From: Micromonospora terminaliae
GTDB lineage: Bacteria; Actinomycetota; Actinomycetes; Mycobacteriales; Micromonosporaceae
Assembly (NCBI RefSeq): GCF_009671205.1
Contig: NZ_CP045309.1
Span: 2,728,001 to 2,792,000 of the forward strand
Direction of reading: 5' to 3'
Length of the DNA: 64,000 bases
Shown here: piece by piece, positions 9,990 through 59,238 of the stretch
Numbering within the stretch: the first letter of the stretch is position 1
Layout: the number at the start of each line of letters is the position of its first letter
Position numbers and translations under genes: made by a program
The notes under the pieces: generated by a model
What the model was told of the DNA's origin: nothing
The model's input: only the letters and a program-made list of their open reading frames with translations
Databases searched by the model: none

Positions 9990-10702
9990 GATGAGCCTCT
10001 GTCCGTGTGGTGGGTGCGGGCCAGCGCCCGCGTGAACTCGGTCCGGCCCAGCGGCACGCCGAAGACCGGGCCGCCGGGTTGCAGGAGGCGGCCGGCCCGC
10101 AGGCTGTCCAGCCGCACCGCGTCGTAGCCGACGCGCTCGATCAGGTCCGCCACGGTGCCCACCGCGGCCGGGTCGTCGCCGGCGACGCCCAGCGCGCGGC
10201 GGTCCGGCGCGCCGGCCGGGCGGCGGTCGTCCTCCAGGTCGTGGTAGCCGATGTGGTTCAACGTCTTCACGACCGTCGACCGGGCGAGCCGGCGCTGGAC
10301 CATCTCGCTGCTGCCGTGGCGGGGGTCGTCGAACAGCTCCTGGACGCCGTCCACGGGCGGCCAGTAGTTCATGGTGTCCACCACGAGCTTGCCGGCGAGC
10401 AGGGCGGGATCGAGGTCCGGGAACCGGTGCAGCGGTATCGCCAGCACGACGATCCCGGCGTCCGCGACGGCGTCGGGCGCCCAGCGCGCCTGCGCACCGG
10501 GGGCCAGCACCTCGGTGATGAGGGCGATGTTCGCCGGGTCGCCGGAGGCCGCGATGCTCACCGGATACCCGGCGGCCAGCGCTACCCGGGCGATCACCGG
10601 CCCGGTGTGCCCGGCGCCCAGCACGGCCGTCCGCGGCCGGGGCGACAGGGTCCTCGTCGCGGCCGGGGCGTCGGCGCCTGCGGTGCCGTCGTCGTCACCC
10701 AT
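9986..10702 (-). CDS. NADPH-dependent F420 reductase-like / NAD(P)-binding oxidoreductase
   Basis: The 238-residue protein begins its fold with TAVLGAGHTGPVIARVALAAG, a GxGHxG dinucleotide-binding loop of the F420H2:NADP oxidoreductase (Npdg/NAD_binding_2) family, followed by VVLAIPLHRFPDL and DTMNYWPP, which match that family. It may reduce F420 or act as a stand-alone NADP-dependent dehydrogenase. The ATG at 10702 is used; a GTG three codons upstream (10711) has an equally good ribosome site, and a start at 10759 is rejected because it would cover both operators. It is the first gene of a two-gene operon with the LLM oxidoreductase. Confidence 0.8.
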   Translation of the reverse strand: MGDDDGTAGADAPAATRTLSPRPRTAVLGAGHTGPVIARVALAAGYPVSIAASGDPANIALITEVLAPGAQARWAPDAVADAGIVVLAIPLHRFPDLDPALLAGKLVVDTMNYWPPVDGVQELFDDPRHGSSEMVQRRLARSTVVKTLNHIGYHDLEDDRRPAGAPDRRALGVAGDDPAAVGTVADLIERVGYDAVRLDSLRAGRLLQPGGPVFGVPLGRTEFTRALARTHHTDRGSS

Positions 10703-50301: not shown

Positions 50302-51159
50302 GTGAGAATCCGCCGAAGCCGACTCACCCCCCTGCTCGCCGCGACCGTCGGCCTCGTGGCCGCCGGCGCCTTCGCCGTTCCCGGCGCCGCCTCCGCCGCG
50401 CCGGGCTTCACCGCCGACCAACTGGCCCGCGCCGACGCCGCCGTCGCGGCCTCCGGCGTGCAGGGCATCGCCTGGCGTGTGGACGCTGGTTCCGGCCGCG
50501 TCGTGGTGACCGCGGACGACAGCGTCTCCGCCGCCGAGGTGGCCGCGGTCAAGAAGAGCGCCGGCACCGCGGCGGGCGCCATCCGGATCGACCGGGCCCG
50601 GGGCACCTTCCGTCCGCTGCTGTCGGCCGGCAACGCCATCTACGGCGGCGGCTACCGCTGCTCGCTCGGGTTCAACGTGGTGAAGTCCGGGGTCTACTAC
50701 TTCCTCACTGCCGGGCACTGCGGCAACGTCGCCAAGACCTGGTACACCGACTCGGGGCTCAAGACCCTGATCGGCCCGACCATCAGCTCCAGCTTCCCGG
50801 GCAACGACTACGCCCTGGTCCGCTACGACAACGCCGCGCTCAGCCACCCGGGCGGCTACACCGCCGCGAACGCCGTGGTGGGTGAGTCGGTGAAGCGGAC
50901 CGGGTCGACCACCGGCACCCACAGCGGCACGGTGACCGCGTTGAACGTGACCGTCCGCTACCAGGGCGGCGGCACGGTCCGAGGCATGATCCAGACCACC
51001 GTCTGCGCCGAGCCGGGCGACTCGGGCGGCCCGCTCTACGACGGCACCAAGGCGCTGGGCATCACCTCCGGCGGCAGCGGTGACTGCCGCTCCGGCGGCA
51101 CCACCTTCTACCAGCCGGTCACCGAGGCGGCGAGCGCGTACGGCGTGACTGTCTACTGA
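50302..51159 (+). CDS. Secreted S1-family serine protease (streptogrisin-like)
   Basis: The 285-residue precursor has a signal peptide ending near ASAAPG (residue 34), a propeptide of about 65 residues with [11 protein letters not shown], and a chymotrypsin-fold domain with the triad His in FLTAGHCG (near 139), Asp in NDYALV (near 173) and Ser in GDSGGPLY (near 240). It resembles streptogrisin and alpha-lytic-type proteases that fold with their propeptide. The GTG follows GAGGAGAAG. It is flanked by a clear promoter and two terminator hairpins, so it is transcribed alone. It lies directly upstream of the lanthipeptide cluster; a role in leader removal is possible but unproven. Confidence 0.92.
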
Positions 51160-51288: not shown

Positions 51289-51338
51289 CGTGATTTCAAA
51301 CTCCGCCGTTGTCACGATTTCGGGGTGCGAAAATCACG
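51289..51338. promoter_or_regulatory. Repeated CGTGATTT elements upstream of the lanthipeptide synthetase
   Basis: CGTGATTTC (51289-51297), CACGATTTCG (51313-51322) and, inverted, CGAAAATCACG (51328-51338) lie 87-136 bases before the synthetase start. The outer two make an inverted repeat of CGTGATTT. The AT content is higher here than around. They are candidates for binding one of the NarL-type regulators at 57824-59238. Confidence 0.45.
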
Positions 51339-51424
51339 CGCCGGTCATGACTCATCACACTTTGCCCACCCCTCCGCCGTCCGCAGGATTGACCTCACCC
51401 GATCAGCCGGTGGAGGCAGACGAC

Positions 51425-54007
51425 ATGGACGAACGGTACGACTCGTACTGCGCGGTCGATCCGCTGTTCTACGACTCGCTCGCCAGCTCGGACGTCGAGG
51501 CCCCCGGCTACGCGGCGGACCGCCCGCCGGCGCCCGGCTGGGAGCGCGAGGTCAAGGACGACTGGCTGGTCCACGGTCCGGTCGCCGGTTCGCTCCCCTC
51601 GCAGGGCTGGAAGATCCACGTCTCGGCCCGGCTGGACAACGCCGAGCGGGTGCTGACCCGGGTGATGGACTACTGCGAGCCCCGCGGCATCCCGTTCAAG
51701 CACCTGCGCGGCCCGCGGATGCTGCTCATGCGCAACAGCAAGTACGCCCGCCGGGCCGCCAGCGGCAAGTTCGTCACCGTCTACCCCCGCGACGACGCGG
51801 AGCTGGAGCTGACCGCCAAGGAACTGGCCGCGCTGCTCGACGGCGAGACCGGGCCGTACATCCTGAGCGACCTGCGGTACGGCGACGGCCCGGTGTACCT
51901 GCGCTACGGCGGATTCGCCGCCCGGTACTGCCTCTCGCCGGAGGGCCAGGTGGTGCCGGCCATCGAGGACCCCACCGGCACGCTGGTGCCCGACCGGCGC
52001 GACCCGGTCTTCCACGTGCCCGACTGGGTCACCCTGCCCGACTTCCTCGCCCCGCACCTGGCCGCCCGGAACGCCGCGACCACCACCGACCTGCCCTACC
52101 GGATCGAGAAGGTCATCCACTTCTCCAACGGCGGCGGTCTCTACGAGGCGCGGGACACCCGCACCGGGGACCGGGTGGTGCTGAAGGAGGCCCGCCCGCA
52201 CGCCGGGCTGGACGCCACCGGCGCGGACGCGGTGACCCGGCTGCGCCGGGAGGCCGAGACGCTGCGCCGGCTCGCCGGGGTGCCGCACCTGGTACGCGTG
52301 CACGACGAGTTCAGCTTCGGCGGCCACGAGTTCCTGGCGCTGCCGTTCGTCGACGGCCGCCCCCTGAACAAGCTGGTGGTGGAGCGCTACCCGCTGGTCC
52401 ACCTCGACGCCGACCGGGAGGCGTACACCCGGTGGGCACTGGACCTGCACCGGCAGGTCGCCGAGGCGGTGGACGCCATCCACGCCCACGGCGTGGTCTA
52501 CGGCGACCTGCACATGTTCAACATCATGGTGGGCGACGACGGGACCGTCACGCTCGTCGACTTCGAGGTCGCGACCCCCGCCGCGGCGGCCGCCCGGCCG
52601 GCACTGCGCAACCAGGCCTTCGCCGCGCCCCGCGACCGGACCGGCTTCGACGTGGACCGGTACGCCCTGGCCTGCCTGCGCCTGGCCCTCTTCCTGCCGC
52701 TGACCGCGATGCTCCGGCTGGCGCCCGAGAAGGCCGCCCACCTGGCCGAGGTGGTGGCGGAGCACTTCCCCGTCCCCCGCGAGCTGCTCGACGAGTCGGT
52801 CGCCGTGATCCTCGGCGAGGCCGCGACCGGGACCGGCCACACGCCCGGCCACCCGGTCGGGCCGCGGACCGACCCGGAGGACTGGCCGGCACTGCGGGAC
52901 CGGCTCGCCGCCGCGATCGGCGCGAGCGCCACCCCGCACCGCGACGACCGGCTCTTCCCCGGCGACATCCGGCAGTTCGCCGGCGCCGACGGCGGGCTGA
53001 ACCTGGCCCACGGCGCGGCCGGGGTGCTCTGGGCGCTGCACACCAGCGGCGCCGGCACCGACCCCGGGCACGAGCGATGGCTGATCGACCGGGTGCGGGA
53101 ACCCGCGTCGGGCAGCCGGCTCGGCTTCTACGACGGGCTGCACGGCGTCGCGTACGTGCTGGACCTGCTCGGGCACCGCGCCGAGGCGCTGCGGCTGCTG
53201 GACCGCTGCCTCGACGAGCCGTGGACCGAGCTGGGCGACGACCTGATGAGCGGCCTGTCCGGTGTCGCGCTCAACCTGGCTTACTTCGCCGGGCGCACCG
53301 GCGACCGGCGGTACGCCGACGCCGCCCGGCGAGCGGCCGCCGTGGTCGTCGGTCGGCTCGGCGACGTGGAATCGGTCGCCGAGGTCAGCGGCGGCCGCCA
53401 CCCGTACGCGGGACTGCTCCGGGGTGGCGCCGGCACCGCGCTGATGCTGCTGCGGATGTACGAACTGGACCACGACGAGAGCCTCCTCGACCACGCCGCG
53501 ACGGCGCTGCGGCAGGACCTGCGCCGGTGCGTCCGGCGCGAGGCCGGCCACCTGGAGGTCAACGAGGGCTGGCGGACCATGCCCTACCTCGCCGAGGGCA
53601 GCGTGGGCATCGGCCTGGTGCTCGACCAGTACCTGCGCCACCGCGGCGACGAGGATTTCCGCGGCGCGGCCGAGGACATCCGCCGCTGCGCCGACTTTCC
53701 GTTCTACGCCCAGTCCGGGCTGTTCGCCGGCCGCGCCGGGATCGTGACGTACCTGGCCGGACGAGGTGAGCGGGAACCGGCTCGCCGGCAGGCCCGGCTG
53801 CTGAGCTGGCACGCCCTGCCCTACCGGGACGGGATCGCCTTCCCCGGCGAGCAGCTGCTGCGGCTGTCCATGGACCTTGCCACCGGCACCGCCGGAGTGC
53901 TGAGCGCCCTCGCGGCGACCCGGCCGGCGAGCCCGGGCCGGCTGCCGTTCCTCACGCCACTGCCCGGCGCGGCACCCGCCCGGCCCACCCCACCGGCCGG
54001 CGACTGA
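51425..54007 (+). CDS. ramC: Class III lanthipeptide synthetase (RamC/AmfT-like LanKC)
   Basis: The 860-residue protein has the three-part LanKC layout. The N-terminus (MDERYDSYCAVDPLFYDS) matches RamC/AmfT and leads into the phosphoamino-acid lyase domain (about 1-210). A Ser/Thr-kinase-like domain follows (about 225-480) with HAHGVVYGDLHMFNIMV as catalytic loop and TLVDFEVA as metal loop. A LanC-like cyclase domain forms the rest (about 515-850, with NLAHGAAGVLWAL and LFAGRAGIVTYL) and shows no CHG zinc-ligand cluster, as expected for class III. It phosphorylates, dehydrates and cyclises the peptides encoded at 54081-54382. The ATG at 51425 follows GTGGAGG; the longer frame from 51290 would cover the regulatory repeats. 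Confidence 0.95.
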   Translation: MDERYDSYCAVDPLFYDSLASSDVEAPGYAADRPPAPGWEREVKDDWLVHGPVAGSLPSQGWKIHVSARLDNAERVLTRVMDYCEPRGIPFKHLRGPRMLLMRNSKYARRAASGKFVTVYPRDDAELELTAKELAALLDGETGPYILSDLRYGDGPVYLRYGGFAARYCLSPEGQVVPAIEDPTGTLVPDRRDPVFHVPDWVTLPDFLAPHLAARNAATTTDLPYRIEKVIHFSNGGGLYEARDTRTGDRVVLKEARPHAGLDATGADAVTRLRREAETLRRLAGVPHLVRVHDEFSFGGHEFLALPFVDGRPLNKLVVERYPLVHLDADREAYTRWALDLHRQVAEAVDAIHAHGVVYGDLHMFNIMVGDDGTVTLVDFEVATPAAAAARPALRNQAFAAPRDRTGFDVDRYALACLRLALFLPLTAMLRLAPEKAAHLAEVVAEHFPVPRELLDESVAVILGEAATGTGHTPGHPVGPRTDPEDWPALRDRLAAAIGASATPHRDDRLFPGDIRQFAGADGGLNLAHGAAGVLWALHTSGAGTDPGHERWLIDRVREPASGSRLGFYDGLHGVAYVLDLLGHRAEALRLLDRCLDEPWTELGDDLMSGLSGVALNLAYFAGRTGDRRYADAARRAAAVVVGRLGDVESVAEVSGGRHPYAGLLRGGAGTALMLLRMYELDHDESLLDHAATALRQDLRRCVRREAGHLEVNEGWRTMPYLAEGSVGIGLVLDQYLRHRGDEDFRGAAEDIRRCADFPFYAQSGLFAGRAGIVTYLAGRGEREPARRQARLLSWHALPYRDGIAFPGEQLLRLSMDLATGTAGVLSALAATRPASPGRLPFLTPLPGAAPARPTPPAGD

Positions 54008-54022
54008 CCGGCCCCACCAGCT

Positions 54023-54042
54023 CCCCGGGGGCAACCCCGGGG
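54023..54042 (+). promoter_or_regulatory. RNA hairpin between ramC and the first precursor gene
   Basis: CCCCGGGG, a GCAA tetraloop and CCCCGGGG form an 8-bp stem 15 bases after the ramC stop. It can act as a partial terminator or as a 5' stabiliser of a processed peptide mRNA. Confidence 0.55.
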
Positions 54043-54080
54043 TGGTCCGACCCGACGCGCACCGAAGGAGGTGACACGAC

Positions 54081-54200
54081 ATGGCCCTGCTCGACCTCCA
54101 GGGGATGGAGCTGCCGGCCGCCGAGCGTACCGGCGGGGGCAGCCAGGCGAGCCTGCTGCTCTGCGGCGACAGCTCGCTGAGCATCACCACCTGCAAGTGA
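54081..54200 (+). CDS. ramS: Class III lanthipeptide precursor, SapB-like (copy 1)
   Basis: The gene encodes 39 residues. The leader MALLDLQGMELPAAERT has the LxDLQ box that class III synthetases bind (RamS leader: LFDLQSMET). The core contains SQASLLLCGDSSLSITTC, i.e. two SxxSxxxC units that give lanthionine or labionin rings. From memory the mature SapB sequence differs from the last 21 residues here at only three positions (T1G, R4Q, N21K). It is therefore a SapB-type surfactant morphogen. AAGGAGGTGA lies seven bases before the ATG, a near-perfect ribosome site that fits high peptide output. Confidence 0.95.
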   Translation: MALLDLQGMELPAAERTGGGSQASLLLCGDSSLSITTCK

Positions 54201-54378
54201 CCCGGCCGTCCACCCACGACGGCCACCACCGACACATCCGTCACGACAGAAGGAGAAGGATCATGGCTCTGCTCGACCTCCAGGCGATGGAACTGCCGAC
54301 GACCGAGAACCACGGCGGGGGCAGCCAGGCGAGCCTGCTGCTCTGCGGCGACAGCTCGCTGAGCGTCACCACCTGCAA
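54131..54378 (+). repeat. Direct repeat covering the core regions of the two precursor genes
   Basis: Bases 54131-54196 and 54313-54378 are 66-base copies with one mismatch (A54183 against G54365). The leaders and spacers differ much more. This indicates gene duplication with the core kept constant by selection or gene conversion. Confidence 0.85.
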
Positions 54379-54382
54379 CTGA
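54263..54382 (+). CDS. ramS: Class III lanthipeptide precursor, SapB-like (copy 2)
   Basis: This second 39-residue precursor has the leader MALLDLQAMELPTTENH, with the same LxDLQ box, and a core SQASLLLCGDSSLSVTTC with two SxxSxxxC units. It differs from copy 1 by Val for Ile in the second ring and Asn for Lys at the last residue; its last residue equals that of SapB. The ATG at 54263 follows AAGGAGAAGG. A longer open frame from 54071 reads across copy 1 out of frame and is not used. Both peptides should be processed by the same synthetase and exported by the same transporter. Confidence 0.95.
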   Translation: MALLDLQAMELPTTENHGGGSQASLLLCGDSSLSVTTCN

Positions 54383-54396
54383 CGGACAGTTCGCCT

Positions 54397-54428
54397 GGCC
54401 CCGGGCCGGCTCACGCCGGTCCGGGGCC
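54397..54428 (+). promoter_or_regulatory. RNA hairpin between the precursor genes and the exporter genes
   Basis: A 14-bp stem (54397-54410 with 54415-54428) with one G-U pair and a TCAC loop lies 15 bases after the second precursor. It can act as attenuator, so that the peptide genes are expressed above the exporter genes, or as a 3' stabiliser. Confidence 0.6.
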
Positions 54429-54445
54429 GCGCCCGTGGAGGTGCC

Positions 54446-56113
54446 ATGACCCCGGCCGACCGGCTCCTGTGGCGCGCCGTCGGGTCCGCCGGCTGGTGGA
54501 CCCCGGTGCTGCTCGGGGCCACCGTGGCCGGGGCGGCGGCCGAGCTGGCGCTGCCCGCGGCGCTGGGCCGCGCGGTCGACGCCGCCGTAGGCGCCACCGC
54601 CGGGGAGTCCGCCGGTCGCTGGCTCGCCGCGGTTGGCGCACTGGTCGTCCTCCTGGTCGGCGCGGGCGTGGTGCGGGACTACGGCACCGGCGCGGCGAGC
54701 GCCCGTTCCGTCGCCGGCCTGCGCCACACGCTGATCCGCCACATCCTCGCGCTCGATCCCCGCACGGCGGCCCGCCACCCGGTGGGTGACCTGGTCGGTC
54801 GCCTGGTGGGCCAGGTGGCCGACGCCGGGCAGGCCGCACCGACCCTCGTGCTGGCCGGCACCGTCCTGCTGCCGCCGGTGGGCAGCCTGGTGGCCCTCAC
54901 CATGATCGATCCATGGCTCGGCGCGACGTTCGTCGTCGGGCTGGTGCTGCTGGGCGTGCTGTTGCGCGGGTTCGTCGCCGACGCGTCCGCCGCGGTCGCC
55001 GGCTACCAGCGGGCCCAGGGGCACCTCGCCGGGCTGATGGTGGAGGCGCTGGCCGGCGCGCGGACCATCGCCGCCGCCGGCACCGCCGGGCGGGAGGTCG
55101 ACCGCGTCCTGACCCCGGTCCCGGAGCTGCGGCGGCACGGCACGCGGACGTGGACGGTGCTGGCCGGGGCCGCGACCCGGGGCGCCGTGCTCAGTCCGAT
55201 GCTGCAACTGGCCGTGGTGACCGTGGGCGGGCTCTCCCTGGCCGCCGGGCGGCTGACTCCGGGAGACCTGCTGGCCGCCCTCCAGTACGCCGCGCTCGGC
55301 GCCGGCCTCGGCACCGTGGTCAGCGCCCTCAACAAGGCCGTGCGGGTACGCGCCGGCTGCCGTCGCGCGGCCGAGGTGCTCACCGAACCGGTCCGCCGGT
55401 ACGGCGACCGGACCCTGCCGCCCGGCCCCGGCTGCCTGGAGCTGCGCGGGGTCAGTGTCCGGGCCGACGACGGCCGGCCGCTGCTCGACGGGGTGGACCT
55501 GCGGGTGCCGGGGGGCGCCCTGCTCGCCGTCGTCGGCCCGTCCGGCGCCGGCAAGTCCCTGCTCGCCGCCGTCGCCGGCCGGCTGCGCGACCCGGACGCC
55601 GGGGAGGTGCGGCTGGACGGGACGCCGCTGCCGGATCTGTCCGCGGCGGCGCTGCACGCGGCGGTCGGCTACGGGTTCGAACGGCCCGTACTGGTCGGCG
55701 AGACGGTGGGCGCCGCCGTCGGGTGCGGCGCCGACCCGGTGCCGGTGGCCCGGGCCGCGGCCATCCACGACTTCGTCGAGCGGCTGCCCGACCGGTACGG
55801 CACGCCGCTGGCCGAGGTCGCCATGTCGGGCGGGGAACGCCAGCGGCTCGGCCTGGCCCGCGCGCTGCGGGCCGAGCGGCTGCTCGTCCTCGACGACGCC
55901 ACGTCCAGCCTGGACACGGTGACCGAGTACCGGGTGAACCGCGCGCTGACCGACCGGGCGGACCGGCGTACCCGGGTGGTGGTGAGCCACCGGGTCGGCA
56001 CGGCCGCCCGGGCCGACCTGGTGGCCTGGGTGGCGGCCGGACGGATCCGCGCGGTCGGCCCGCACGCCGTGCTCTGGGACGACCCCGCCTACCGGGCGGT
56101 GTTCCGCTCGTGA
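54446..56113 (+). CDS. ramA: ABC exporter, permease-ATPase (RamA-like), degenerate ATPase site
   Basis: The 555-residue protein has six membrane helices (about 20-300) and an ATPase domain (about 330-550) with Walker A GPSGAGKS, signature MSGGERQRLGLARAL and H-loop VVSHRV. Two key residues are changed: the Q-loop reads VGYGFERPVL with no Gln, and Walker B ends LLVLDDATSSLD with Asp instead of the catalytic Glu. It should therefore pair with the normal ATPase encoded next to it. It exports the lanthipeptides. The ATG follows GTGGAGG and the stop overlaps the next GTG. Confidence 0.9.
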   Translation: MTPADRLLWRAVGSAGWWTPVLLGATVAGAAAELALPAALGRAVDAAVGATAGESAGRWLAAVGALVVLLVGAGVVRDYGTGAASARSVAGLRHTLIRHILALDPRTAARHPVGDLVGRLVGQVADAGQAAPTLVLAGTVLLPPVGSLVALTMIDPWLGATFVVGLVLLGVLLRGFVADASAAVAGYQRAQGHLAGLMVEALAGARTIAAAGTAGREVDRVLTPVPELRRHGTRTWTVLAGAATRGAVLSPMLQLAVVTVGGLSLAAGRLTPGDLLAALQYAALGAGLGTVVSALNKAVRVRAGCRRAAEVLTEPVRRYGDRTLPPGPGCLELRGVSVRADDGRPLLDGVDLRVPGGALLAVVGPSGAGKSLLAAVAGRLRDPDAGEVRLDGTPLPDLSAAALHAAVGYGFERPVLVGETVGAAVGCGADPVPVARAAAIHDFVERLPDRYGTPLAEVAMSGGERQRLGLARALRAERLLVLDDATSSLDTVTEYRVNRALTDRADRRTRVVVSHRVGTAARADLVAWVAAGRIRAVGPHAVLWDDPAYRAVFRS

Positions 56114-57894
56114 CCACGGTCGGTGCGGTGACCCGGGCCGCGCTGCGGGTACGGCGGGCCGCGCTGGTGCGGCTGGCCGCGTGGTCGGCGGCCGAGGCGC
56201 TGCCGGCGGCGCTCACCGGGCTGTTGACCGCGCGGGCCGTGGACGCCGGCTTCCTGGCCGGGCGCCCGGATGTCGGGCTGCTCTGGCTGGGGCTGCTGGC
56301 CGCCGCCGTGCTGGTCGGCGCCGTGGGCACCAACCGGGCGTACGCGTGCCTCGGCGACGTGGTCGAGCCGTTCCGCGACGACCTGCTACGCCGGGTGGTG
56401 GCCGGCGCGCTGGCGGGCGCGACGGACGGCCGGGTCGACGACGCGGCGGTGGGCCGCCTGACCCACCAGGTGGAGATCGTCCGGGACACCTGGGCCGGCC
56501 TCCTGACGGTGGTCCGCGGCTTCCTGTTCGCCGCGTGCGCCGCGATCGTCGGGCTGTTCTCCCTCGCCGCCCCGGTCGCCCTGCTGGTCACCGTGCCGGT
56601 GCTGGCCGGTCTCGGCCTGTTCGCGGCCGCCGTACCTGCGATGATCGCCCGCCAGCGGGAGTACGTGCTCGCCGACGAACGCCTCAGCCGGGTCGCGGTC
56701 ACCGCGATCGCCGGCCACCGCGACGTGTCGGTGAGCGGCGCGCGCGAGCAGGTCACGCGCTGGGTGGGCCGGCACGTCGACGCGCAGGCGCGGGTGGAAC
56801 GGCGGCTCGCCGCCATGGCGGTCACCCGTGGCCTGAGCCTGGCCGTCGGTGGCTGGCTGCCGGTGCCGGTGGTCGTGCTCGCCACCCCGTGGCTGGTCCG
56901 GCAGGGCCTCGGACCGGGCGCGGTGCTGGGCGCCCTGGTCTACGTCGTCCGGGGGGTGCAACCCGCCCTGCACACCCTCGTCCAGGGCGTGGCCGCCGGG
57001 GGGCTGCGGTTCACCGTCACCCTGGACCGGCTCCTGCGGACGGCCGTCCCGGCGCCCGGCGAGGCCGCGCCGGCCGGCGGGGCGCGGCCCGCGCCGCCGG
57101 GCCCGCCGGCGCTGTCCCTGCGGGGCGTGACGTTCCGGTACGGGCCGCACGCCGACCCGGTGCTCGACGGCCTCGACCTCGACGTGCCCGACGGCGACCA
57201 CCTCGTGGTGGTGGGAGCCAGCGGGATCGGCAAGTCCACCCTGGCCGCGGTGATCGCCGGGGTGCTGCCTCCGCAGGCCGGCACGGTCGAGGTGGGCGGG
57301 ACCCCGGTGGCCGGCGCGACGGCCGCCGAGCTGGCGCGGCGGCGGGTGCTGATCCCGCAGGAGGCGTACGTCTTCACCGGCAGCGTCCGGGACAACCTCC
57401 GCTACCTGCGGCCCGACCTGGCGGACCTGGAGATCGCCCGGGCGGCGGCCCGGCTGGGCCTGTCCGAGCTGGTGGACCGGCTCGGCGGGCTGGACGCGAC
57501 GCTGCGCCCGGCCGGCCTGTCCGCCGGGGAGCGCCAGCAGGTGGCCCTGCTGCGCGCCTGGCTCTCCCCCGCGCCCCTGGTGATCCTGGACGAGGCCACC
57601 TGCCACCTCGACCCGGCCACCGAGGCGCGGCTGGAGACCGCGTTCGCCGAGCGGCCCGGCACGCTCGTGGTGATCGCGCACCGGGTCAGTTCGGCGCTGC
57701 GCGCCCGCCGGGTGCTGCTGCTCGACGGCGGGCGCGCGCTGCTCGACAGCCACCCGGGGCTGCTGGCCCGGTCGGCCGCGTACCGGGAGCTGGTGGGTTA
57801 CTGGGAGGCCGGCGCGGAGCCGCTCAGATCCAGCCCGACTCCCGGGCGATCCGCACCGCTTCCAACCGGGTCCGTGCGCCGGTCTTCGCCATGA
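56110..57894 (+). CDS. ramB: ABC exporter, permease-ATPase (RamB-like), canonical ATPase site
   Basis: The 594-residue protein has six membrane helices (about 15-310) and an ATPase domain (about 335-575) with Walker A GASGIGKST, Q-loop LIPQEAYVF, signature LSAGERQQVALLRAW and Walker B LVILDEATCHLD, all intact. With the upstream RamA-like chain it forms a heterodimer with one active site, as in many bacterial exporters. The GTG overlaps the RamA stop (GTGA). Its last 24 codons overlap the end of a convergent regulator gene (57824-57894). Confidence 0.9.
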   Translation: MTTVGAVTRAALRVRRAALVRLAAWSAAEALPAALTGLLTARAVDAGFLAGRPDVGLLWLGLLAAAVLVGAVGTNRAYACLGDVVEPFRDDLLRRVVAGALAGATDGRVDDAAVGRLTHQVEIVRDTWAGLLTVVRGFLFAACAAIVGLFSLAAPVALLVTVPVLAGLGLFAAAVPAMIARQREYVLADERLSRVAVTAIAGHRDVSVSGAREQVTRWVGRHVDAQARVERRLAAMAVTRGLSLAVGGWLPVPVVVLATPWLVRQGLGPGAVLGALVYVVRGVQPALHTLVQGVAAGGLRFTVTLDRLLRTAVPAPGEAAPAGGARPAPPGPPALSLRGVTFRYGPHADPVLDGLDLDVPDGDHLVVVGASGIGKSTLAAVIAGVLPPQAGTVEVGGTPVAGATAAELARRRVLIPQEAYVFTGSVRDNLRYLRPDLADLEIARAAARLGLSELVDRLGGLDATLRPAGLSAGERQQVALLRAWLSPAPLVILDEATCHLDPATEARLETAFAERPGTLVVIAHRVSSALRARRVLLLDGGRALLDSHPGLLARSAAYRELVGYWEAGAEPLRSSPTPGRSAPLPTGSVRRSSP

Positions 57895-58435
57895 TCCGGG
57901 AGAGGTGGTTGCGTACCGTCCCGGCCGACACCGCCAGCTTCTCGGCGATGTCCCGGACCGGATGCCCCTCAGCCGCCACGTCGAGCACCTCCCGCTCGCG
58001 GGGCGTCAGCGGGCTGTCGGCCACCTCCAGCGCCGCGACCACCAGCTCGGGATCGAGCACCACCTGACCACGGGCGAGCAGCCGCACGCCCTCGGCGATC
58101 CGCTGCGGGGGCACCTCCCGGCTGAGGAAGCCGACCCGTCGCCCGTGCTCGGCGAGCACTGGACGGACCCGGGCGGCGCGGCGCCGTTCCACCAGGACCA
58201 GCAGCCGCCCGCCGCCGTCGGGGTCGCCCCCGGCGGCGATCCGGGCGAGCTGGTGCAGGGGTACGAGGTCGGCGTCGACGACGGCGACGTCCGGACGGTC
58301 GTCCCGCAACGCCTCACGCAGGGCGTGCGCCGTGGCCGCCTCGCCGACGACATCGATGTCGCCCTCGGCGTCGAGCAGATGGGCGAGGGCCCCCCGAACC
58401 AGTCGACCCTTGAGCGCGAGCAGCGTGCGGACCAT
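57824..58435 (-). CDS. NarL/LuxR-type response regulator (RamR-like), atypical receiver
   Basis: The 203-residue protein has a receiver-like domain (about 1-115) and a LuxR helix-turn-helix (about 138-200: SPLTPREREVLDVAAEGHPV, then KLAVSAGTVRNHLSRIMAKTGA). The start reads RTLLALKGRLVRGAL, so the acidic pair of true receivers (LLADDE) is missing, and the conserved Lys after FLS is Arg; an Asp remains in VVDADLV. RamR of Streptomyces, the activator of the ram operon, is of this type. No histidine kinase is nearby. It converges on ramB. It probably controls the peptide operon. Confidence 0.85.
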   Translation of the reverse strand: MVRTLLALKGRLVRGALAHLLDAEGDIDVVGEAATAHALREALRDDRPDVAVVDADLVPLHQLARIAAGGDPDGGGRLLVLVERRRAARVRPVLAEHGRRVGFLSREVPPQRIAEGVRLLARGQVVLDPELVVAALEVADSPLTPREREVLDVAAEGHPVRDIAEKLAVSAGTVRNHLSRIMAKTGARTRLEAVRIARESGWI

Positions 58436-58551: not shown

Positions 58552-59238
58552 TCAGATCCAGCACGCGTCCCTGGCCCGCTCGACCGCCTCCCAGCGGTTC
58601 CGCGCGCCGGTCTTGCGCAACAGGCTGGACACGTGGTTGCGCACGGTGCCCGGCGCGAGGTGGAGCCGCTTCGCGATCTCCGCGGTCCGGAGCCCCTCCG
58701 CCGCCGCCGCGGCCACCTCGCGCTCCCGTTCGCTGAGCGGGTTCACCGCGGCGTCGAGGGCGGCGAGCGCCGTCAACGGGTCGATCATGCGCTGCCCGCG
58801 GGCCACCGCCCGCAGCATCTCGACCAGCTCCTCCGGCGGCACGTCCGTGGCGACCACCCCGCGGACCCGGGCGCCGAGGGCCCGGCGCAGCGCCCGGGCG
58901 GTGCGGCGGGCGGTCAGCACGACGACGGCGCACCCGTCGGCGTCCGGTCCGGTGACCACAGCGGGGTCGTCCACCGCGTCGAGATCCACCAGCAGCAGGT
59001 CGGGACGGCAGGCGGCGAGCAGCGCCGGCACGCTCCCGGCCGGCTCCGTGTCGCCGACCACCGCGAAGCCCGGCGTGGCGGCGAGGACCGCGACCACGGC
59101 GGTCCGCAGCAGGCCCGGCTCCGCGACCACCGCCACCCGCACCGGCGCGGAGACCGTCCCGTCCCGTACGTCGCCCACCTGGACCACTGTGCCGGAAGGA
59201 CCCGCGGATAGTCGAGTTCGCTCGAGGTTGTCCAACAT
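58552..59238 (-). CDS. Second NarL/LuxR-type response regulator, atypical receiver
   Basis: The 228-residue protein has an N-terminal extension of about 30 residues, a receiver-like domain (VRVAVVAEPGLLRTAVVAVL; LLLVDLDAVDD) and a LuxR helix-turn-helix (NPLSEREREVAAAAAEGLRT; LAPGTVRNHVSSLLRKTGA). The acidic pocket reads A-E instead of D-D, and the Lys position is Thr (VATDVPP), so classical phosphorylation is doubtful. Its end, ARNRWEAVERARDACWI, is close to that of the first regulator (ARTRLEAVRIARESGWI). Start uncertain: ATG 59238 has no strong ribosome site. It lies between the first regulator and the GH18 gene, all on the same strand. Confidence 0.82.
   Translation of the reverse strand: MLDNLERTRLSAGPSGTVVQVGDVRDGTVSAPVRVAVVAEPGLLRTAVVAVLAATPGFAVVGDTEPAGSVPALLAACRPDLLLVDLDAVDDPAVVTGPDADGCAVVVLTARRTARALRRALGARVRGVVATDVPPEELVEMLRAVARGQRMIDPLTALAALDAAVNPLSEREREVAAAAAEGLRTAEIAKRLHLAPGTVRNHVSSLLRKTGARNRWEAVERARDACWI

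Follow-up and report, generated by a model that had tools for sequence, protein, structure and literature searches.

A SapB-type class III lanthipeptide operon with two RamR-like regulators in Micromonospora terminaliae, a host without a chaplin match

The window, a 64,000-nucleotide stretch of the 6.74 Mb genome of Micromonospora terminaliae, carries a complete operon of the SapB type. SapB is a small soap-like peptide that aids the aerial growth of Streptomyces. The first-pass annotation of this DNA had proposed a RamC-like synthetase, two SapB-like precursors and paired ABC exporter genes with RamR-like regulators next to them, and the family models NF038151 and NF033212 together with Pfam profiles confirmed every part in its place, in an order that recurs in relatives. 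The operon opens on the plus strand with a ramC-like gene (51425–54007) encoding an 860-aa class III lanthipeptide synthetase of the LanKC (lyase-kinase-cyclase) type. Its product scored 1090 bits with NF038151 (cut-off 575) and contains the RamC N-terminal lyase (PF25816, RamC_N, E 3e-81), kinase (PF00069) and LanC-like (PF05147) domains, the RamC_N match being the only one in the whole genome. Structures have been solved for relatives of the synthetase, among them LanKC chains such as 8sao and SalKC 9ugq. The closest RamC among the matches listed, from which records of the host's own genome may have been omitted, was that of Micromonospora chaiyaphumensis (97%), in line with the Micromonospora-like host that had been suggested.

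Two ramS genes follow on the same strand, each encoding a SapB-type precursor of 39 aa: copy 1 (54081–54200; ribosome-binding site GGAGG) with the core SQASLLLCGDSSLSITTCK, and copy 2 (54263–54382; ribosome-binding site GGAG) with the core SQASLLLCGDSSLSVTTCN. Against a cut-off of 25 bits, they scored 67.7 and 69.6 bits, respectively, with the SapB/AmfS model NF033212, and both matched the Pfam RamS family PF19402 (E 3e-17 and 2e-17). Both leaders carry MALLDLQ, which includes the LxDLQ motif, and both cores consist of SQASLLLC and SSLS(I/V)TTC, that is, of two S-x-x-S-x-x-x-C motifs. We take the two cores to be nearly identical to SapB itself.

Directly downstream of the precursors lie two ABC half-exporter genes, at 54446–56113 and 56110–57894 on the plus strand, which overlap by 4 bases and occupy the same positions in relatives. 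The Pfam scan found PF00005 in both products and PF00664 in the first only, and it detected no peptidase domain in either, so that leader removal is probably performed by a protease from elsewhere. In class III systems, the leader protease is usually encoded outside the operon. An S1-type secreted protease gene upstream of the operon (50302–51159) was considered as a candidate leader peptidase and rejected as a part of the system; a copy adjoining the operon and oriented as here was seen in just four loci (L032, L040, L042 and L123), and the S1 matches found elsewhere are 42–55% identical and differently placed.

Two LuxR/NarL-type regulator genes with PF00196 matches follow on the minus strand, which bears out the proposal of adjoining RamR-like regulators. 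R1 (57824–58435) is the convergent RamR/AmfR-like regulator of the locus, and R2 (58552–59238), the next gene, also reads toward the operon. The receiver domains of both appear degenerate when aligned to a generic receiver consensus: R1 has Leu/Lys in place of the Asp/Asp pocket and Arg in place of the conserved Lys, and R2 has Ala/Glu and Thr at these sites. The gene of the second half-exporter and that of R1 overlap tail to tail by 71 bases (57824–57894), and a similar arrangement was seen in close relatives, for example L032 and L042.

An alignment with MAFFT of 21 loci whose RamC is at least 75% identical revealed a nearly invariant block upstream of ramC, at about 51290–51371 on the plus strand, with the pattern CAAACTCCGC..TTGTCAC...TCA...TGAC...C.CACT; beyond it, farther from ramC, most of these loci differ in sequence. 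The 21-base center of the block, CAAACTCCGCNNTTGTCACGA, was found once in the genome when up to three mismatches were allowed (51297–51317), and the control returned 0 matches. The block likely contains the promoter and the predicted binding region of the RamR-like regulators. If its center is a binding site, its uniqueness in the genome implies that the regulon probably consists of the ramC operon alone.

As judged from the sequence, all operon genes are present, open and conserved, and the locus almost certainly represents an intact SapB-type class III lanthipeptide system. Going by what is known of the family, the RamR-like regulators would switch on ramC through the conserved upstream block, and RamC would phosphorylate and dehydrate four core serines per precursor and close two Ser-Cys (lanthionine) rings in each. 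The peptides would then be exported by the two half-transporters and relieved of their leaders by a protease that the operon itself lacks. The predicted products are two amphiphilic peptides of about 1.8–2.0 kDa, nearly identical to SapB. With four water losses each, the calculated neutral monoisotopic masses are 1967.9 (copy 1) and 1939.9 (copy 2) for peptides starting at GGS, 1910.9 and 1882.9 for a start at GS, and 1853.9 and 1825.8 for a start at S.

To place the operon among its relatives, we searched genomes of the genus and of the family with NF033212. A precursor match was present in 79 of the 151 genus genomes and in 103 of 250 family genomes (25 of 44 genera), and in 0 of the 14 standing control genomes. 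Since 72 of the 151 genus genomes had no precursor match, the genus appears able to live without the system. The DNA used for comparison comprised 40 regions from family genomes and 80 further loci (the best 80 of 125), covering all 35 precursor-positive genus genomes of the 250-genome sample (27 regions, the window itself and seven further loci); a second precursor of genome G183, on another contig, fell outside it. So did 46 of the 79 genus positives, some of which may belong to species already covered and a few of which score lower. Other genera contributed 13 regions, mostly strong matches, which biases the observed conservation toward SapB-like cores.

Across Micromonosporaceae, Streptomyces and Actinomadura, the recurring order was a synthetase, one to three precursors, two exporters and one or more convergent regulators. 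Micromonospora loci fell into a group near the window (RamC about 78–97% identical, mostly with two or three precursors) and a second group (RamC about 62–68%, mostly with one precursor). In two loci, L141 (genome G010) and L086 (Streptomyces humicola), the regulator or regulators come straight after the synthetase and precursor, with no exporter match between them or adjacent. The operon lies in different neighborhoods in different species. Among 17 loci compared, more than 600 bases of flanking DNA were common with the window only in L032, L040 and L042 on the left and in L040 and L042 on the right, although some right flanks were short and those of L036 and L049 were too short to enter; L123 has both neighboring genes in common with the window. 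Flanks that differ between species groups of the genus (L032–L050) indicate that the operon changed place or was exchanged.

One might read this patchy occurrence as the decay of a relic inherited from an ancestor that bore aerial hyphae. Close to half of the genomes sampled from the genus have no precursor match, and a loss of sporulation on aerial hyphae has been suggested for micromonosporae (PMC5765111). The RamC match of Micromonospora sp. NBS 11-29 (L087, 9001–11482) is moreover broken in two near 10245, probably by a frameshift and not far from the end of a contig. The substitution pattern points the other way. Pairwise omega ranged from 0.06 to 0.35 in 30 of 30 comparisons of RamC, both exporters and both regulators with six relatives (rough values, obtained by a simple counting method on GC-rich genes), and these proteins are under purifying selection. 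The upstream block is likewise retained in the 21 close loci. The core SQASLLLCGDSSLS(I/V)TTC is almost invariant, as the first-pass annotation had supposed, and the ring or dehydrated positions S1, S4, C8, S11, S14 and C18 are unchanged in all 88 cores examined (from 59 loci including the window, or 58 without L140, a repeat of L044; a 60th locus, L151, was dropped as its precursor has no such core). On the omega values and the retained ring residues, we rejected a relic as the main reading and consider it very improbable.

Variation in the core is confined largely to positions 2, 15 and 19; two cores deviate at position 10, two at position 12 and a single one at position 16. The SapB pattern of hydrophobic residues is retained. 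The commonest core, SRASLLLCGDSSLSVTTCN, accounts for 40 of the 88 and occurs identically in a precursor from a Streptomyces MAG (L088), and more diverse cores are found outside the Micromonosporaceae group. Stronger protein-level selection on the core than on the leader was not supported as a simple statement: in pairs of 72 precursors, pN/pS was 0.45 for the core vs. 0.24 for the leader, a difference explained by the three variable core positions and by unusually low synonymous change in the core.

An unusual codon pattern was noted in the two core coding segments (54141–54197 and 54323–54379, plus strand). With one precursor taken per locus, codons 5–12 (CTG CTG CTC TGC GGC GAC AGC TCG) are all but frozen in 58 loci, with a mean entropy of 0.127 bits. 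A null matched by residue, drawn from near-invariant positions of RamC and the exporters in these loci, gave 0.760 (SD 0.111; only 18 sites for serine), and none of the 5000 draws reached a value that low. Codons 13–18 behaved normally (0.758 vs. 0.703 for the null). Among 1905 eight-codon stretches of RamC and the exporters, a single one was lower than core codons 5–12 (0.047; DLHLFNIM of RamC), and it consists partly of residues with few codons and includes one column that is only 59% conserved; among stretches in which each residue is more than 90% conserved, the minimum was 0.434.

Part of this freeze may come from trapping in one serine codon island, because going from AGC/AGT to TCN requires an intermediate codon for a different residue. 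AGC encoded ring serines 1 and 4 in 41 of 41 motif-bearing precursors outside the family group (within L054–L111), possibly as a result of such trapping; at the serine of core position 2 in the precursors of the same loci, AGC, TCC and TCG were all used. Trapping leaves leucines 5 and 6, glycine 9 and the TCG at position 12 unaccounted for. An mRNA hairpin was also considered, and it made a weak candidate for the cause: relative to synonymous recoding, the mean z was −0.85 over 52 distinct cores, with a median of 20% of recodings folding as low, and for the whole gene z was +0.71 (first 30 of the 52).

The pair of regulators is a further feature of the family's loci. Two or more regulators lie downstream of ramC in 45 of 59 Micromonosporaceae loci (repeat removed), one in nine and none in five, several loci with fewer than two being cut by a contig or region end. 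Among those with one, L116 and L124 do have an R2 match that the extraction missed, L130 is cut at the region edge, and L047, L050, L145, L149, L150 and L151 carry a single regulator outside the R1 and R2 groups, with a further regulator match upstream of ramC in L047 and L050. The other 61 loci (L051–L111, including one Micromonospora, L087, which is cut after ramC) had one regulator in 49 cases, none in 12 and two in 0; as the queries were R1 and R2 of the window, a strongly diverged second regulator could escape this search. A tree built from 149 regulator sequences placed first and second regulators of Micromonosporaceae in two large groups with similar branching, and the window's R1 and R2 fell one into each; the tree is a quick one with SH-aLRT support only, in which many branches are open and some are long. 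In three loci (L036, L049 and L112), the match of the first regulator was longer than elsewhere, about 730–820 bases, and insertion-like.

Receiver pockets were scored across these groups in the same way as for the window. In 49 R1 receivers from 48 loci, the first acidic pocket residue is lost in 48 (with one gap) and the conserved lysine in all 49, and the aspartate is retained in 45. The 45 R2 receivers are mixed, with the lysine retained in 34 and the aspartate in 33. We infer that R1 and R2 may be unphosphorylated or controlled in an unusual way.

In Streptomyces, SapB works alongside chaplins, and we assessed the chaplin content of the host with the Pfam model PF03777. No chaplin match was found in the M. 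terminaliae genome, where all 53 of 53 candidates were scored, or in any of the 35 genus genomes with a precursor match in the 250-genome family sample. That sample contained 136 chaplin-positive genomes, none of them in the window's genus, with at most 24 candidates scored per genome. The absence is defined by one Pfam model; the 14 standing control genomes gave 0 matches with it, so the positive control is a separate set of 23 genomes. Of these, 14 were positive: 6/6 Streptomyces, 2/2 Actinomadura, 1/1 Actinoallomurus, 2/2 Glycomyces and 3/12 Micromonosporaceae (M. pattaloongensis, Jidongwangia and Nucisporomicrobium), M. pattaloongensis bearing another genus code (g8) than the host. The nine negative controls were seven Micromonospora and two Plantactinospora. 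Across the family, chaplins and the operon followed no clean rule: outside the genus, 48 of 68 precursor-positive genomes had a chaplin match and 20 had none, and 88 genomes of the family sample had a chaplin match without a precursor.

The lack of a chaplin match in the genus sample speaks against an ordinary SapB role, in which the strain would raise short aerial hyphae under some conditions and the peptide would aid surface crossing as in Streptomyces. Carro et al. (2018) predicted a sapB cluster in almost half of their Micromonospora strains, none of which had aerial hyphae (PMC5765111), and WhiG and WhiI were reported absent from Micromonospora (PMC4255298). The literature also holds observations in favor of such a role: sterile aerial hyphae in some Micromonospora strains and spore-bearing aerial mycelium in others (PMC5765111), aerial hyphae reported in the genus (PMC11960110), and the inclusion of Micromonospora among aerial-hypha-forming bacteria (PMC9011353). 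The core, almost identical to that of SapB, fits it as well. We consider this role unlikely on balance. The first-pass annotation had argued that the peptide must serve another, non-aerial task. Such a task is plausible; the "must" goes too far in view of the aerial hyphae reported in PMC5765111 and PMC9011353.

A non-aerial task could in turn be that of a signal or weak antimicrobial rather than a surfactant. The patchy presence (79/151), the tandem precursor copies, which often differ at the last residue, and the dedicated regulators resemble specialized-metabolite loci, and a near-fixed sequence could suit a receptor. The SapB-like hydrophobic residues argue against this, as does the inactivity of a related morphogen after a hydrophobic Leu change (PMC13380574), and we consider it improbable that the peptide acts mainly in this way. 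Our order of the alternatives is short aerial hyphae, then signaling, then a relic.

The best reading, which we hold to be probable from the sequence evidence and by analogy, is an active SapB-type surfactant system that works without chaplins. In Micromonospora, the peptides might be the principal surfactant that the colony secretes, or the principal coat of the colony and of the surface that bears its spores, and not helpers of tall aerial hyphae; we give this role, carried over from Streptomyces, an even chance. More tentatively, and with rather less expectation of being right, we propose that the SapB-type peptide could be the sole amphiphilic coat in a chaplin-free genus, governed by a new two-regulator switch (R1 and R2 with co-inherited degenerate receivers) and subject to an extra nucleotide-level constraint on its core. 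If a sole coat without chaplins proves true, SapB would be a general surfactant of actinomycete colonies at the air-water interface and not an aerial-hypha factor as such. In this genus, a SapB system is found where no chaplins are detected and aerial hyphae are usually missing, so that two things joined in Streptomyces come apart. The two tiny ramS genes offer a route to the effect of the surfactant by itself, which makes a non-aerial SapB role directly testable, and with the system present in about half of 151 genus genomes, carriers can readily be compared with strains that lack it.

Clusters of this kind are already known. Chandra and Chater (2013) described similar clusters as sporadic in complex genera (PMC4255298), PMC9011353 names SapB-like precursors of Micromonospora, and PMC9967187 and PMC11960110 report SapB clusters of the genus. 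The clusters of Carro et al. (2018) represent the same system in the same genus, with 79 of 151 genomes here vs. "almost half" there, and the non-aerial puzzle is already in print in that paper (PMC5765111). The accessible text of PMC5765111, PMC9011353, PMC9967187 and PMC11960110, all from the open-licence literature, makes no mention of a second regulator, chaplin absence or frozen codons for Micromonospora sapB.

Compared with the ramCSAB-ramR locus of S. coelicolor (SapB) and the amf locus of S. griseus (AmfS), the window shares the order of synthetase, precursor, two ABC half-exporters and convergent regulator; a convergent ramR is also described for the Streptomyces ram locus in PMC10090380. 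Its own features are two precursors and two RamR-like regulators with degenerate receivers. All seven operon and regulator genes lack a TTA codon, whereas most Streptomyces clusters have one (PMC4255298), and the host, unlike Streptomyces, has no chaplin match. Durhapeptin and rochsin, class III lanthipeptides of the SapB/AmfS family, are made by the same enzyme class from different cores; they carry labionin rings, whereas SapB and AmfS carry lanthionine, and a durhapeptin variant was shown to induce aerial hyphae, as rochsin A is also reported to do (PMC13380574). Overall, the operon is a known system with small lineage-specific features, to which the present analysis adds the absence of chaplin matches in the genus sample, the second regulator, the invariant ring residues, purifying selection and the frozen core codons.
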